In this document: positions 7,868 through 36,424 of the stretch, piece by piece | Layout of the letters: each line of letters opens with the position of its first letter | How positions within the stretch are numbered: position 1 is the stretch's first letter | Source: Chloroflexota bacterium | GTDB lineage: Bacteria; Chloroflexota; Anaerolineae; Anaerolineales; Villigracilaceae | Assembly: GCA_024434165.1 (NCBI GenBank) | Contig: QMIW01000042.1 | Location: forward strand, 1-48,484 | DNA: 48,484 nt | Direction: 5' to 3' | The notes under the pieces: model-generated | The model's input: only the letters and a program-made list of their open reading frames with translations | Databases searched by the model: none | Told to the model about the DNA's origin: nothing | Position numbers and translations under genes: made by a program

Positions 7868-8944
7868 ATGCTCGATAAATTAAAAGCCATCGAAGAAAAA
7901 TTCGAACAACTCGGTAATGAACTGCTCGAGGTGGGCAACGATTACAAGCGCGCCGCGGAGATCAACAAAGAGCGTGTGGATTTGGAGCCGCTGGTCGAGA
8001 AGGCGCGGGAATACCGCCAGGCGGTGAAAAGCCTGGAGGAAGCCCGGGCAATTCTCACGTCGGAGAAGGATGCGGAGTTGGTCGCGCTCGCCGAAGCGGA
8101 CATTGACGAACTCACCCCGAAGATCGAAGCGCTCGAAAAAACCATCAAAGGCATGCTCGTGCCGAAGGACCCGCGCGACGACAAGAACGTCATCGTGGAA
8201 ATTCGGGCGGGAGCGGGCGGCGATGAAGCCGCCATTTTTGCCGCGGACCTGTTCCGCATGTACACGCGCTATGCCGAAGACAAAAAATGGAAGACCGAAA
8301 TTCTCTCCGAAAATGCCATCGGCGTGGGCGGATACAAGGAGGTCATCTTCGAGGTCAAGGGAAAGGGCGCGTTTTCAAAATTGAAATACGAATCGGGCGT
8401 GCATCGCGTGCAGCGCGTGCCCGCCACCGAAGCGCAGGGGCGCATCCACACCTCCACCGCCACCGTCGCCGTGCTTGCCGAAGTGGACGATGTCGAAATC
8501 GAAATTCCCGAATCCGACATCGAGATCGAGGTCTTTCGTTCATCCGGCGCGGGCGGGCAGAACGTGCAAAAGAACTCCACCGCCGTGCGCTTGTATCATA
8601 AACCAACCGGCATGGTCGTGACCTGCCAGGACGAACGCTCGCAGCTGCAAAACAGATTGCGCGCCATGTCCATTTTGCGCGCGCGGCTGTACGAGATCGA
8701 AGAACAAAAACGCCGCGCCGAACTCGAAGCCGACCGCCGTTCGCAGGTGGGAACCGGCGAGCGTTCGGAAAAAATCCGCACGTACAATTATCCGCAGAAC
8801 CGCGTCACCGACCACCGCATTGGTTTATCCAATTACAACCTGCCCGCCGTGATGGACGGCGACATTGACGGGTTCATTGACGAACTCACCACGCGCGACG
8901 AAGCGGGCAAACTCGCCGCCAGCGGCGTGGAAGATGACGAGTAA
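7868..8944 (+). CDS. prfA: Peptide chain release factor 1
   Basis: RF1 releases the finished protein at UAA and UAG codons. The 358-residue protein has the RF1-type anticodon tripeptide PAT (185-187, in [10 protein letters not shown]) and the GGQ motif at 229-231 that enters the peptidyl transferase centre. AAGGA at 7858-7862 sets the start. Its methyltransferase PrmC, which normally is encoded next to it, lies 3 kb downstream beyond two transporter genes in the same direction. A hairpin with a T-run follows the stop. Confidence 0.97.
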
Positions 8945-8983: not shown

Positions 8984-11119
8984 ATGCCCAAAACCATCGC
9001 CCGAATCTTTGCTGTCATTCTCGTTGCCGCGCTGGCATGGACCCTGCGAATGCGCGCCGTCTCCATGCTGCCGATTGACTTCGACGAGGACGATTACCTG
9101 CGCGCGGGACAACAATACGCGCATCTAATTCGGACTTCGGACTGGTCCGGTTTTCTGGAAACGAACTACCGCCCCGAACATCCCCCGCTGGCGAAAATCG
9201 CCTACGGCATCGTCTTTTCATTTTTTCCCGAACAGCCGCTCGTAGAGGATGTGGCGATCACGGCTGCCCCCGCCTCCTCCCTGCCCGAAGATTTGCTCCA
9301 AGCCGGGCGCACCGAAGCCGCCGTCTTCGGCACGCTGACCGCCGCCCTGCTCGCCCTCGTCAACCCGCTGGGCGGACTGTTCCTCGCGGCGCATACATTC
9401 ACCATCAAATACACCAGCCAGATCATGCTGGACGGTCTCTCTGCGTTATTGAGTTTGAGCGCGGTTTTGGCGTATTGGCAGTTTAGGAAGAAAAACCACA
9501 ACGGCTGGCTCATCGCTTCAGCGATTGTGCTTGGGCTCGCCGCAGACTCAAAGTACCTGCATGGCACGGTCGGTTTTGCCATCCTCGCGGACTGGCTGCT
9601 CGAAAATAAAGCCAGCCTCTCGCTCAAAAACCCGAAAGCATTCACGCCCATCCTCGGCTGGGGGATTCTTTCCCTGCTCACCTTTTTCGCTTTCAATCCC
9701 TATCTCTGGGCAGACCCCGCCGGGCGGTTGCAGGAATCCTTCGGCGCGGTGACGTACACCGTGACCAACCCGAATGTGGACCGCGCCTCCTACCCGTTCT
9801 GGCAGCAACTCAACTGGCTGACCATGTCGGTGCCGTGGCACAACAACCCGCGTGTGTTCGTGGTCATGCTGGATACGTTCATCGCATTTCTCGCCGTCCT
9901 CGGCTTCAAGCGGACGTGGGAACGACATCGCATTTTCGCGCTGTGGCTGGCAATTGATGTTTTCATCCTGCTGGTCTGGCGCACCAAATGGCCCCAATAC
10001 ATCCTGATCGTCACTGCGCCGTTGAGTCTCTCCGCTGCCGAAGGGACTGCCCTGCTCTGGGGTCAAATGCTCCAGGCGTGGAAAAACCGTCCGAAGACCG
10101 GAGCAGCCTACAGGAAGGTCGAGATGCGGCGCGCCGTCCCCTGGCTCATCCCCGGCTTGACCGCCTTCCTCGTGCTGACCATCTTCCCGCTCCTTTTCCA
10201 AATCGCCATTTCGCTGACGGATTTCAACAGCGCATCCATCCGCGACGGCTTCAGCGGCGGGATTTGGCGCGCGGTGTGGCAGGGCATCAGCGGGCAGATC
10301 GAAGCGGTTCAACTGGATATCGAGGCGCGTTCCAATCAGGTGAACTTCACGGGCTTGGGTTCGTACCCTGCCGTTTTTCAAGTCATCACGGCGGGCTTTG
10401 GCGATGGATACAACATCCTGTTTTTCAATGTGATGTGGACGCTTCTCTCCGTCACGCTGCAAGGCGGGCTGGGAGTGGCGGTCGCTTTGCTGTTATGGCA
10501 AAAAGGCGTGCGGCTGGGAAAGTTCTGGCAGGCGTTGTTCATCCTGCCCTGGGCAATCCCTGAAATGGTCGGCGCGCTGATGTGGCTGAACATTGTGCAG
10601 GAGGACTGGGGCTGGCTGTATCTCGCCGCGAAAAAGTATGGGGCGGACTCTTTCTTCGGCGCGCTGGTCAACGGCATCCAGACCAGTTCGAGCGCGTGGC
10701 TTTTGCTGTTCCTCCTGCCCGCCGTGTGGTATGGATTTCCGTTCATGATGCTGGCTGCCAGCGCGGGGTTGAAGATGATTCCGAAGGACGTGTACGACGC
10801 CGCCGCCATGGACGGCGCGAACGCCGTGCAGACGTTTCGTTTCGTCACCCTGCCGCTGCTCATGCCATTGCTCCTGCCCGCCTTCATCGTGCGCGGGATT
10901 TTTGCCTTCAACCAGTTCTATCTTTTCCAGGCGTTCTTTTTTTGGAACGCCACGCTTGCCACACTGTCCTACAATGTTTTCAACCCGTCGGGCTTCAACG
11001 CCCTTGGGCAATTTGCCGTCTCGGCGGTGATCAACATCATCACGGTCTTGATTCTCATCCTGTTCGTTTCCATGTTCAACCGCTGGAGCAGGGCGGGCGA
11101 AGGAGTGACGTATGCGTAA
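8984..11119 (+). CDS. Fusion: GT-C (PMT/ArnT-like) glycosyltransferase + MalF-type ABC permease
   Basis: A 711-residue membrane protein made of two unrelated halves in one uninterrupted frame. Residues 1 to about 375 look like a GT-C glycosyltransferase: an acidic loop after the first membrane helix (DFDEDDY, 32-38), EHPPLAK at 65-71, then helices with YTSQIMLDGLSALLSL and GLAADSKYLHG. From about 378 the protein becomes a sugar-type ABC permease of the MalF kind, with LIPGLTAFLVLTIFPLLFQI, then the EAA loop near 604-623 (YDAAAMDGANAVQTFRFVTLPLL) that contacts the ATPase. A MalG-type partner overlaps it by 8 bases. No ATPase or binding protein is encoded nearby. Such a fusion could glycosylate while exporting or importing a lipid-linked or sugar substrate; that is inference. 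An assembly join is unlikely because the frame and composition continue across the junction. Confidence 0.85.
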   Translation: MPKTIARIFAVILVAALAWTLRMRAVSMLPIDFDEDDYLRAGQQYAHLIRTSDWSGFLETNYRPEHPPLAKIAYGIVFSFFPEQPLVEDVAITAAPASSLPEDLLQAGRTEAAVFGTLTAALLALVNPLGGLFLAAHTFTIKYTSQIMLDGLSALLSLSAVLAYWQFRKKNHNGWLIASAIVLGLAADSKYLHGTVGFAILADWLLENKASLSLKNPKAFTPILGWGILSLLTFFAFNPYLWADPAGRLQESFGAVTYTVTNPNVDRASYPFWQQLNWLTMSVPWHNNPRVFVVMLDTFIAFLAVLGFKRTWERHRIFALWLAIDVFILLVWRTKWPQYILIVTAPLSLSAAEGTALLWGQMLQAWKNRPKTGAAYRKVEMRRAVPWLIPGLTAFLVLTIFPLLFQIAISLTDFNSASIRDGFSGGIWRAVWQGISGQIEAVQLDIEARSNQVNFTGLGSYPAVFQVITAGFGDGYNILFFNVMWTLLSVTLQGGLGVAVALLLWQKGVRLGKFWQALFILPWAIPEMVGALMWLNIVQEDWGWLYLAAKKYGADSFFGALVNGIQTSSSAWLLLFLLPAVWYGFPFMMLAASAGLKMIPKDVYDAAAMDGANAVQTFRFVTLPLLMPLLLPAFIVRGIFAFNQFYLFQAFFFWNATLATLSYNVFNPSGFNALGQFAVSAVINIITVLILILFVSMFNRWSRAGEGVTYA

Positions 11120-11966
11120 CATTCCGTTCTGGAGACAGGTCGTCACGCAGATTCTGCTGGCGCTGACGGGTTTCTTCGTCATCCTGCCCATTTGGGGCAT
11201 CGTGCGTCTCGCTTTCGACGGTTCCCTGCGCGGGCGTCCCACCGAGTTTTTACTCCTGCCGAAGCAGTGGTCGTTTACCGCGTTCATGCAGGTGTTGGAT
11301 CGTCCCTATCAATCCGTTAACTTCTCCACTTTATTCAAGAACAGCATGGTGGTTTCGCTCAGTGCGGCGATCATCGCCATCATTCTCGGCATCAGCCTTG
11401 CCTACGCCTTCGCGCGCTTCCGCTTCCCCGCCCGCCAGCAGGGATTGTTTGCCATCCTGCTCACGGCGTTCCTGCCGCCTGTGGCATTCATGACGCCGCT
11501 CTACATCCTGCTCAGTATGCTGCAGATCCGCACCACGCTCTTTGCGCTGGTCATTGTTTATGCCGCGTTTGCCATGCCGTTCTGCATCTGGAACATGCGC
11601 GCCGCCTTCCAAGCCATTCCAAAGGAAGTGGAGGAAGCCGCCTTCCTCGACGGCGCGGGAGACTTCGGCACCTTCATTCACATCACGTTTCCATTGGCGC
11701 TGCCGTCCATCGCCGTCGCAGGTCTGATCGCCTTCCTGATGGCATATTCCGAATTCACGCTGGGCTGGCTCTTCGTCGAAAAAGCCGATAACGTCACGCT
11801 TGCCATGTCCATTTATGCCATCGTCCAATCGCAATATTCGGGCGGCGCGCAGCCGTGGAGTTACCTCGGTTCGCTTGCCATCATCATGTCCGTCCCCGCT
11901 GTGGTCATCTTCCTTATTTTCCAGCGCACCCTGCTCGAACGCATGATGTTCGGATCCGCCGAATGA
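11112..11966 (+). CDS. MalG-type ABC transporter permease
   Basis: An inner-membrane permease of 284 residues, family of carbohydrate ABC importers (CUT1). It has six predicted helices and the EAA motif EEAAFLDGAGDFGTFIHITFPL starting at 174, which docks on the ATPase. The start overlaps the preceding fusion gene by 8 bases and the stop overlaps prmC by 4. It is presumably the heterodimer partner of the MalF-like half of the preceding protein. The ATPase and solute-binding protein must be encoded elsewhere, as in systems that share a general MsmK/UgpC-like ATPase. Confidence 0.92.
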   Translation: MRNIPFWRQVVTQILLALTGFFVILPIWGIVRLAFDGSLRGRPTEFLLLPKQWSFTAFMQVLDRPYQSVNFSTLFKNSMVVSLSAAIIAIILGISLAYAFARFRFPARQQGLFAILLTAFLPPVAFMTPLYILLSMLQIRTTLFALVIVYAAFAMPFCIWNMRAAFQAIPKEVEEAAFLDGAGDFGTFIHITFPLALPSIAVAGLIAFLMAYSEFTLGWLFVEKADNVTLAMSIYAIVQSQYSGGAQPWSYLGSLAIIMSVPAVVIFLIFQRTLLERMMFGSAE

Positions 11967-12817
11967 ACGCCGGAGAACTATTCCACGCTTACCTCGCCGA
12001 GTACCAGGGCGAGACGGCTGAATTGGATCTTCAACTGATTCTCGCGCACGTGATGGAAGTCCCGCGCTCGTGGCTGCTCGCCCACCTCGACTCGCCTCTG
12101 ACTCCGCCGCAGGTTGATTCAGCGAATGACGCCTTTGCCCGTCTGCGGGCTGGGACTCCGCTCCCCTACATTCTCGGTCACTGGGAATTTTACGGTCTCG
12201 ATTTCGACCTCACGCCCAATGTGCTGATTCCGCGCCCGGAAACCGAACTCCTGGTGGAAAAAGCCATCCAATGGCTGGGCAGCAGTCCCGAAAGACGAAC
12301 CGTCGCCGACATCGGCACCGGCTCCGGAGTCATCGCCGTCTCCATCGCCATGCACGTCCCGGATGCGCGCATCCTCGCCACTGATATTTCCATCAAGGCA
12401 TTGAAGGTCGCCAGGCACAACGCGCAGAAATTTCACGTCCATCACAAGATTGATTTTCTGCAATGCGACCTGCTGCCACAACACATTGACCCATTGCCCA
12501 CCGACAGTCATTTCGACTTGATCTGCGCCAACCTGCCATACATTCCGACCCAAACTTTGCATGGACTTCCCGTGTATGGGCGTGAACCCACTCTCGCCCT
12601 GGACGGAGGCGAAGACGGGCTCGACCTGTTCCGCCGGCTGCTCGCCCTATCCACAGAGTGGCTTGCGCCGCGAGGCGCGCTCCTGCTGGAGATCGAAGCC
12701 GCGCAGGGGATGAAAGCCCTCAGCCTGGCATACGACCTGTTCGCAGAAGCCGCCATTCAACTGCATAAAGACCTCGCCGGGCGCGACAGACTGCTCGAAA
12801 TCCATTTGCACGAATAA
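11963..12817 (+). CDS. prmC: Release factor glutamine methyltransferase
   Basis: PrmC methylates the glutamine of the GGQ motif in RF1/RF2 using S-adenosylmethionine. The 284-residue protein starts at ATG 11963, overlapping the permease stop as ATGA. The N-terminal helical domain contains PYILGHWEFYG, then the SAM-binding VADIGTGSGVIAV (114-126). The substrate motif is NLPY (190-193), where most homologues have NPPY. It is on the same strand as prfA but is separated from it by the fusion and permease genes, so its translation is coupled to a transporter gene. Confidence 0.95.
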   Translation: MNAGELFHAYLAEYQGETAELDLQLILAHVMEVPRSWLLAHLDSPLTPPQVDSANDAFARLRAGTPLPYILGHWEFYGLDFDLTPNVLIPRPETELLVEKAIQWLGSSPERRTVADIGTGSGVIAVSIAMHVPDARILATDISIKALKVARHNAQKFHVHHKIDFLQCDLLPQHIDPLPTDSHFDLICANLPYIPTQTLHGLPVYGREPTLALDGGEDGLDLFRRLLALSTEWLAPRGALLLEIEAAQGMKALSLAYDLFAEAAIQLHKDLAGRDRLLEIHLHE

Positions 12818-34918: not shown

Positions 34919-36424
34919 ATGAATGCCAGGAGCAGGGTTGATTCGTATTTTTGGATGGCTTTCTTCATCGGGCTGGCTGTGCGCCTGGCGGTCGTCCCCT
35001 TCACGATGACCGACGAGGCGGACGCAGTCACCCGCATTTTCATCACACAGGAATGGATGAGGGATCCCGGAATCATCTATCACGGGGTCTGGGGTCCGCT
35101 CCAAACCTACTTTATCGCGCTCTCGCTCGTCGTTTGGGATAACCCGGTATATTCGCCGGTCATCCTGAACTGCATTTTCTCGGCGGCGGCGGCAATCCCG
35201 CTGTATTATTTCGTAAAACGCGAATGGGACGAGAAACCCGCCTTGTTTGCTGCGTGCCTGTATCTTGTCTATCCGGTGGCGTTCCGGTACGGTTTTTTTG
35301 CATTATCCGACGTGCCGTTCATCTTCTTTATTTCGCTGGGCATGCTCCTCCTTTCGCTCGCCCGCGATGCAGGCGGCAATTGGAAACATGCCGCGCTGGC
35401 GGGAATTACGGTCACGCTGGCGGGCGCGCTTCGCTACGAAGCCTGGGGGTTGACGCCCTTTCTCGGATTGCTGCTTTGGAAAAAATGGCGCGAAATGTTC
35501 CTGTTTTACCTGAGCGCCGCCGTCTTTCCGGTATTTTGGATGACGGGAAACTACCTGTATTCCGGCGATCCGTTTTACAGTTTCAATTTTGCGCTCGACT
35601 GGACGCTTAACATCTCGCAAAACGATGTGAACGTATCCACAATCGAGTATGTGAACCGGGCAACCTACTTTCCCCGCGTTTTGTTCTTCGGGCTTACCCC
35701 CATTGCCTTCCTGGTCTGTATTCTGGGAATGTTCTACGCCGTCCAGCGGTGGAAAAAACAGGCGATCTGGCTCCTCCCGCTCGCGGCGTTGTTTGGGACC
35801 TTTACGATCAATGCGGTCAGTGGAAAACTATCCACCCAGGTCAGGTACAGCCTGACGCTGGCGATTTTCATGATCCCCTTTGCGGCGGAGTGGTTCGAGC
35901 GCATGAAAGATTCCCCCCGCCGCACGCTGTACAGCGCCGTTGTGATCGCCTCCATGATTCCGCTTGGGTTTCTCCGCGCCATGATTCCCTGGCAATTCGA
36001 CTTCCCCAACCCGATACCGAGGCAGGTCTCCTATCTCCCGCGCCTCAGCCGGGAAACGGTCAACATCTCAACGGACTTAAACCGTCACCTGGCAAATCAC
36101 CCCGGCGGGCTTATCCTCGATTTTTACGATTGGGGCGATACGTATTACATCGCTCTCATGACTGGAAAGCACAAATCCAACATCTACATGACCCCCGGAG
36201 AAGTGAACGAACCAATGAAGCCCGACGAAGTCGAGGCGTTCCTGTTGGAAAATCCAAAAGGCGTTGTTTTGTTGACGGAAACTCCCAGGTTTCTTCAAGT
36301 TGAGGCGGGGGACGAAGGACCGCTCCTTCGGATTATCGGCACGGACAGGACGCTTCACATCCGGGAAATTGGCGGGGTGGAAGGGCAGCGGGTGTTCGCC
36401 TACTCCGTCAACGCGGAAGACTGA
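34919..36424 (+). CDS. GT-C (PMT/ArnT-like) membrane glycosyltransferase
   Basis: 501 residues: about nine to eleven membrane helices, then a soluble C-terminal domain (about 345-501). The first extracytoplasmic loop carries the acidic pair D32/E33 (FTMTDEADAV) and HGVWGPLQTYF, as in dolichyl-phosphate or undecaprenyl-phosphate sugar transferases of the GT39/GT83 kind. It would transfer a lipid-linked sugar to a protein or lipid outside the membrane; the substrate is unknown. GGAG at 34909-34912, immediately outside MITE-A copy 3, sets the start, so the element occupies its upstream region. Confidence 0.85.
   Translation: MNARSRVDSYFWMAFFIGLAVRLAVVPFTMTDEADAVTRIFITQEWMRDPGIIYHGVWGPLQTYFIALSLVVWDNPVYSPVILNCIFSAAAAIPLYYFVKREWDEKPALFAACLYLVYPVAFRYGFFALSDVPFIFFISLGMLLLSLARDAGGNWKHAALAGITVTLAGALRYEAWGLTPFLGLLLWKKWREMFLFYLSAAVFPVFWMTGNYLYSGDPFYSFNFALDWTLNISQNDVNVSTIEYVNRATYFPRVLFFGLTPIAFLVCILGMFYAVQRWKKQAIWLLPLAALFGTFTINAVSGKLSTQVRYSLTLAIFMIPFAAEWFERMKDSPRRTLYSAVVIASMIPLGFLRAMIPWQFDFPNPIPRQVSYLPRLSRETVNISTDLNRHLANHPGGLILDFYDWGDTYYIALMTGKHKSNIYMTPGEVNEPMKPDEVEAFLLENPKGVVLLTETPRFLQVEAGDEGPLLRIIGTDRTLHIREIGGVEGQRVFAYSVNAED

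Follow-up and report, generated by a model that had tools for sequence, protein, structure and literature searches.

FUS, a single polypeptide encoded by a Chloroflexota bacterium, joins a GT-C glycosyltransferase module to a MalF-type ABC permease, and the two parts are kept together across a wide range of Chloroflexota. Both halves are of known kinds; it is their union and its conservation that are new: Our searches of the open PMC literature gave no account of a GT-C module fused to an ABC permease, and ABC importers and lipid-carrier glycosyltransferases have hitherto been treated as separate systems. FUS probably belongs to the machinery for the uptake of starch fragments, which would tie the fusion to this process in many Anaerolineae and other Chloroflexota, organisms that are poorly cultivated. 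With the conserved fusion, a direct connection of nutrient import to sugar transfer outside the cytoplasm can be tested. The gene lies in a stretch of 48,484 nucleotides, called the window here, and is built up as follows:

8984..11119 (+): FUS, GT-C glycosyltransferase plus MalF-type ABC permease, stop codon included
8984..10057 (+): N-terminal half of FUS, residues 1-358, PMT/ArnT-type GT-C module (Pfam PMT_2, Pmt4 profile match, model)
10058..10114 (+): linker of FUS, about residues 359-377, variable (low column identity, length variation)
10115..11116 (+): C-terminal half of FUS, residues 378-711, MalF/SugA-type CUT1 permease (BPD_transp_1, MalF and SugA matches)

The frame is open over 711 amino acids without an internal stop. 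A first inspection of the letters (the sequence-only reading) had assigned residues 1 to about 375 to a GT-C glycosyltransferase and residues 378-711 to a MalF-type permease, and both identities are borne out by Pfam and by the fold of the model: PMT_2 is found at residues 130-224 (27.5 bits at a curated cut-off of 26.1) and BPD_transp_1 at residues 496-701 (53.3 bits, curated cut-off 26.4), and the same two families were returned when the halves were scanned separately. For the profile of the N-terminal half, yeast Pmt4 is the sole credible solved structure (E 6e-4); the two other rows of this search have E values above 0.2 and are unrelated. The C-terminal half alone matches E. coli MalF with an E value of about 1e-21 and SugA with 2e-11, and the complete permease spans about residues 378-705. 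Our alignment of the fusions comprises the window's protein and 61 of the 68 listed fusions described below, the seven omitted being mostly cut by contig ends. In this alignment (n = 62), residues 359-382 of the linker have a mean column identity of 0.32 as compared to 0.63 in each half, and the region corresponding to FUS residues 355-384 is between 17 and 51 amino acids long. At an E value of 1e-3, PMT_2 matches 10 and PMT 2 of the 62 fusions. Pfam thus misses the GT-C half in most of them, and annotation pipelines are therefore expected to label most fusions as plain permeases.

The AlphaFold2 model of FUS, built with 62 fusions (that of the window and those of 61 relatives), has a mean pLDDT of 93.1 and a pTM of 0.91. 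Its N-terminal half resembles Pmt4 (Z 27.6 over 344 residues), chain B of Pmt1-Pmt2 (Z 27.1), ArnT (Z 25.1 over 308 residues), oligosaccharyltransferases (Z up to 24.0) and ALG12 (Z 22.6), and the residues from about 375 to 710 have the fold of a type I importer (SugA, Z 24.3; MalF, Z 23.2). The border placed earlier at about residues 375-378 agrees with the model: The rows of SugA start at residues 375-383, and those of the oligosaccharyltransferases stop at 367-372; the best Pmt4 and ArnT rows cross this border, with some aligned residues up to 466-473. It had been considered that the N-terminal half might match nothing but the N-terminal helices of MalF-type proteins. This is not the case, as the Pmt4/ArnT fold and the invariant GT-C residues rule out a mere set of additional MalF helices. 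By our count from the helix list of the model, ten transmembrane helices precede the permease. With this even number, the N-terminus of the permease and the EAA loop would both lie inside, and the GT-C loop carrying D34/E35 is predicted to lie outside.

The DFDEDDY and EHPPLAK motifs and the EAA-type loop, already picked out by the sequence-only reading, are all present, and further conserved positions can be added to them:

9077..9097 (+): DFDEDDY, residues 32-38, predicted first outer loop with D34/E35 (D32 and D34 to Y38 in 61/61 fusions)
9176..9196 (+): EHPPLAK, residues 65-71, PMT-type HPP motif (E65, H66 and P67 in 61/61; aligns with HPPFAK of Pmt4)
9308..9310 (+): R109, probably equivalent to Pmt1 R138 (62/62; Pmt4 alignment and the part of PMC7801869 available to us)
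9431..9433 (+): D150, acidic position (E in 53, D in 9 of 62), probably equivalent to ArnT D158 (same part of PMC7801869)
9551..9553 (+): K190, probably equivalent to ArnT K203 (62/62; same part of PMC7801869)
10796..10819 (+): DAAAMDGA, EAA-type coupling loop, residues 605-612 (D610, G611 and A612 in 62/62)
10892..10921 (+): RGIFAFNQFY, R637 to Y646, conserved stretch specific for the fusion (alignment of 62 fusions)

In the GT-C half, D32, D34, E35, D36, D37 and Y38 as well as E65, H66 and P67 are invariant in all 61 fusions that have the respective columns, and R109, K142, Y143, M148 and K190 are invariant in 62/62. According to the part of PMC7801869 available to us, an acidic pair is conserved in this class of enzymes (D77/E78 in Pmt1, D55/E56 in ArnT), E78 of Pmt1 pairs with R138, and the substrate-contacting residues of ArnT include D158 and K203. 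We place D34/E35 of FUS at the position of the two acidic pairs; this and the other equivalences are our own assignments, made from the Pmt4 alignment or from the order of the motifs. The catalytic residues are nearly invariant also in 12 homologues that have another C-terminal half (H66 in 10/11). Invariance of D34/E35, H66, R109, the acidic residue 150 and K190 is what one expects of an active site that has been retained, and the GT-C half apparently is catalytically intact, as judged from its conservation. Moreover, both halves are under purifying selection: w ranges from 0.07 to 0.20 for the N-terminal and from 0.05 to 0.14 for the C-terminal half in five of six fusion pairs, dS not being computable in the remaining one.

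The fusion recurs in the assemblies of relatives. Of 100 genomes drawn from the family, 21 (the window's own among them) have a full-length and stop-free fusion and 79 do not; with the latter we counted G016, whose fusion is shortened, and G032, which has a fragment at the end of a contig. At the level of the class, the N-terminal half was matched in 41 of 298 genomes drawn (E 1e-15), and the family and class searches gave 44 aligned homologues, i. e. 32 fusions and 12 proteins with another C-terminal half; nine of the 53 extracted ORFs were left out, being short or standalone or truncated at the end of a contig. Fourteen of 400 phylum genomes drawn match at 1e-60: Seven matches are full-length in the family of the window, three cover the N-terminal half alone, and two full-length and two partial matches lie outside the class. 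Finally, the profile of the N-terminal half found at least 98 relatives in the species genomes of GTDB r220, of which 80 are listed loci from Chloroflexota, chosen by record titles or belonging to groups that we placed there, and overlapping with the family and class draws. Among these listed matches, 68 of 80 loci encode the fusion as a single open frame of more than 550 amino acids, a few of these frames being truncated at a contig edge. As for the other listed loci, L147 and L156 keep a piece of the permease, L154 ends at a contig edge, and L151, L158, L161, L162, L164 and L165 are standalone GT-C genes. L141, L142 and L144 had been candidates for natural split genes; they are fusions, interrupted in L141 and L142 by a change of frame and in L144 by a same-frame stop.

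The open frames in 21/100 family genomes and 68/80 listed loci indicate that the fusion is neither a misassembly nor due to chance, and the misassembly or missed frameshift near residue 375 that had been feared initially can be rejected. That the fusion is an artefact of this kind, or that two proteins are made via an internal start, is extremely improbable: In the window, residue 381 is indeed an in-frame ATG preceded by a Shine-Dalgarno-like stretch, but an in-frame start in the linker together with such a stretch occurs in only 13 of the 62 fusions, which rules out an obligatory internal start. In a tree of the GT-C proteins calculated with a quick method, most fusions fall into one large cluster with a few standalone genes inside (the rows L126_gtAdj and L149_gtAdj are mislabelled and correspond to the fusion ORFs themselves), and a single old fusion with later losses would fit this pattern.

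The genes around FUS, and the related genes on another contig (C94) of the same genome, are the following:

7868..8944 (+): prfA, release factor 1, upstream, marks context A (named by eye; recurs in relatives)
11112..11966 (+): MalG2, MalG-type permease partner of FUS (BPD_transp_1, 56.5 bits)
11963..12817 (+): prmC, release factor methyltransferase, downstream, marks context A (named by eye, start in the window picked by eye; recurs in relatives)
C94:17762-19006: operon binding protein, 69% to the reference, same genome as the window
C94:19111-20202: MalK, 82% to the reference, same genome as the window

In the window, the start of malG2 overlaps the stop of FUS by 8 nt. Among the listed matches, MalG2 was called immediately after the fusion in 56 of 68 loci, and 45 of these 56 have the identical 8-nt overlap. 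The coupling loop of the FUS permease begins with D (45) or E (17 of the 62 fusions) at residue 605. In addition, this half has conserved residues of its own: R637 is present in 61/62, Q644 and Y646 are present in 62/62 fusions, as compared to G (28), L (27, with Q in one) and N (24) at these positions in the 28 MalF proteins of the operons. The position of E527 is mostly occupied by P, T, S or W in these 28 proteins, and N684, likewise conserved in the fusion permease, is mostly replaced by S or A. Thus, E527, R637 and Y646 occur in none, and Q644 in one, of the 28 operon MalF proteins. We take the segment with R637 to correspond to the E. coli MalF segment that carries maltose contacts. With this correspondence and the conservation of E527, R637, Q644, Y646 and N684, a different or modified ligand is possible, and the residues E527, R637 and Y646 are a hint that the substrate differs from plain maltodextrin.

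Two genomic contexts prevail. Among the listed matches, 23 of 68 fusions are found between prfA and prmC as in the window (context A), and 35 of 68 lie beside genes for a binding protein, MalF/MalG or GH13 enzymes (context B); ten were left unassigned, several of them on short contigs. The typical order in context B, as seen in L095, L107, L108 and L110, is MalK/ROK - binding protein - MalF - MalG - secreted GH13 - FUS - MalG2 - GH13; in L150, no GH13 gene was called and a GH57 gene lies downstream. Neighbouring genes were named by their best phmmer match to 17 reference proteins, of which those for the binding protein, GH13 and ROK were identified by Pfam and the others by eye; our greedy gene caller can miss genes such as MalK on C94, which was recovered by a separate search. 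In the genome of the window, C94 carries MalK, the binding protein, MalF, MalG and two GH13 genes together, without a fusion and its MalG2 partner. A tree of the fusions (quick method, 52 labelled rows) requires six switches between contexts A and B, at least five of them forced by well-supported branches, and the FUS-MalG2 pair therefore seems to travel as a unit. In the family draw, the operon binding protein (E 1e-60 or better) is present in 20 of the 21 fusion genomes as compared to 15 of the 79 others (Fisher p 1e-10 in a test that ignores kinship); this cut-off excludes weaker matches in the fusion-less genomes G022, G038, G092 and G094, with which the latter number would be 19 of 79. 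G036, the sole fusion genome without the binding protein at this cut-off, retains a GH13 gene. Since 15 family genomes have the binding protein without the full-length fusion, maltodextrin uptake seems not to need it.

Some loci have additional neighbours. In L099, L102, L120, L125 and L130, a standalone GT-C homologue of 364-390 amino acids is located directly upstream of the fusion, and four of these loci have prfA, with the standalone gene between prfA and the fusion; such tandem genes beside some prfA-type fusions form a supported branch of their own in the GT-C tree. An arginase-family match (reference identified by Pfam) lies between prfA and the fusion in L092, L111 and L120. Adjoining the fusion, L084 encodes a lipoprotein of about 770 amino acids with LacI-type Peripla_BP_4 and SBP_bac_8 (ABC binding protein) domains (L084:9944-12259), and L143, probably the same contig as L084, and L156 have their best match to the same lipoprotein reference. 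Downstream of FUS-MalG2, L112 encodes a protein of about 575 amino acids of the phosphoribulokinase/uridine kinase family (L112:13371-15101); unnamed genes in L115, L116, L119, L121 and L135 are similar to it by size and place only.

What may be the function of FUS? We consider it fairly probable that FUS and MalG2 are a second maltodextrin permease pair with a built-in transferase that is active, faces outward and depends on a lipid-phosphate-sugar. FUS and MalG2 would pair with the MalK ATPase and the binding protein shared with the alpha-glucan operon, and the resulting complex would serve as the second permease pair of maltodextrin uptake. The outward-facing GT-C half would take a sugar from a polyprenyl-phosphate carrier and glycosylate a target presented where the transporter opens to the outside. 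The most likely targets would be a glycan passed on by the binding protein and a surface component close by; in this way, the fusion would hold the site of transfer beside the site of import. The polyprenyl-phosphate sugar, as we assume from what is common in the family, is the donor of the GT-C half rather than the cargo of the permease. This proposal is in good agreement with the folds of the two halves, with the conservation of the GT-C residues and of the EAA loop over 62 fusions, and with purifying selection on both halves (w 0.05-0.20). Moreover, context B in 35 of the 68 listed fusions, the co-occurrence with the binding protein (20/21 vs 15/79), the GH57 gene of L150, the C94 operon in the window's own genome, and the pair seemingly moving as a unit speak for the proposal. 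Against it stand the 15 genomes with the binding protein, and altogether 79 of 100 family genomes, that have no full-length fusion, as well as the absence of E527, R637 and Y646 from the 28 operon MalF proteins, which argues against a ligand shared with the MalF-MalG pair of the operon. The sequence-only reading had proposed that sugar transfer at the membrane is coupled to ABC transport. The genetic link with alpha-glucan uptake genes fits this idea, the coupling itself being our inference, and the direct passage of a lipid-linked sugar to the pore, given as an example, is a guess. One may also imagine that the binding protein hands over an oligosaccharide, the GT-C half adds to it a sugar from a polyprenyl-phosphate carrier, and the marked product is imported via the ATP-driven FUS-MalG2 pore, with R637, E527, Q644 and Y646 recognising the mark. 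We regard this elaboration as quite unlikely; if true, it would unite group modification at the outer face and ABC import in one polypeptide.

The residues specific for the fusion permease can also be read differently: The cargo of FUS-MalG2 might be another sugar, probably charged or modified (its own GT-C half might make or tag it, for example), and the pair would have in common with maltodextrin uptake only regulation, ATPase and location. The replacement of E527, R637, Q644, Y646 and N684 by mostly P/T/S/W, G, L, N and S/A, respectively, in operon MalF would be explained in this way, and many context B operons already have a complete MalF-MalG pair. However, the maltodextrin binding protein is present in 20 of the 21 fusion genomes of the family draw, and no binding-protein gene on the same strand was called at the 23 context A loci among the listed matches. 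We therefore consider a separate cargo to be possible but unlikely. The probability is lower still that the GT-C half is a Pmt-like protein O-glycosyltransferase that acts on the lipoproteins of the system (binding protein and amylase) at their Thr/Pro-rich linkers. Pmt proteins are indeed the closest solved neighbours by sequence and fold, and there is a precedent in the part of PMC3460810 available to us: Bacterial lipoproteins are glycosylated near Ser/Thr-Pro, and the PstS binding protein is glycosylated through Ppm1/Pmt (there by citation). The linkers of the binding proteins, however, show no difference with and without the fusion (length, p 0.93; T+S, p 0.40; P, p 0.72), and two linkers from fusion genomes have neither T nor S. 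This comparison covers the linkers of binding proteins, 15 vs 10 parsed out of 18 vs 15 fetched; parsing of the linker failed in the remaining eight of 33 loci (three with, five without fusion), which were left out.

An equally improbable function for the GT-C half is that of a non-enzymatic sensor of a lipid-phosphate-sugar or of a scaffold that gates or anchors the transporter. By length and model, FUS has neither the outer soluble domain of ArnT nor the MIR domain of Pmt proteins, and a fold alone proves no function. This is opposed by the residues: Apart from gaps, all 62 fusions conserve D34/E35, H66, R109, the acidic residue 150 and K190, and so, with hardly an exception, do the 12 homologues that have a different C-terminal half.

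Our proposal of a second permease pair with a built-in transferase places FUS between well-studied systems. FUS shares the fold of its C-terminal half (Z 23-24) and the EAA loop with MalF of MalFGK2 and SugA of LpqY-SugABC, both CUT1 importers, and as in these systems a MalG-type partner is encoded downstream and the surroundings are related to alpha-glucans (35/68 listed fusions). Unlike MalF and SugA, it has a whole GT-C module in front and conserved residues of its own in the membrane segments, and it is often the second permease pair of an operon or located far from a binding-protein gene. With Pmt4 and Pmt1-Pmt2, which as Pmt O-mannosyltransferases belong to GT39, the N-terminal half has in common the fold (Z 27), the DE pair, the HPP motif, and the Arg and Lys positions; these proteins possess a MIR domain, whereas FUS has none and is joined to a transporter half. 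Similarly, the fold (Z 25), the acidic pair and the positions of D158 and K203 are shared with the aminoarabinose transferase ArnT of GT83. In contrast to ArnT with its outer soluble domain, FUS lacks such a domain, has no known link to lipid A, and is joined to a permease.

Related GT-C modules are found in other settings as well. The Chloroflexota proteins L061:402-2570 and L064:1474-3630 have an N-terminal half like that of FUS (39% and 35% identity) but a Reg_prop beta-propeller as C-terminal half; these are the two that were scanned among the 12 homologues with another C-terminal half, and L034 and L066 are similar in the alignment. A standalone homologue (L162:9906-11030) is located at the end of a gene cluster that by eye contains transketolase, phosphoglucose isomerase, 6-phosphogluconate dehydrogenase, glucose-6-phosphate dehydrogenase, an OpcA-like protein and 6-phosphogluconolactonase, and the order of gene sizes in L158, L164 and L165 resembles this cluster. 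The window itself encodes a second PMT_2 protein of 501 amino acids (34919-36424, +), and its genome has 37 PMT_2 matches at an E value of 0.01.
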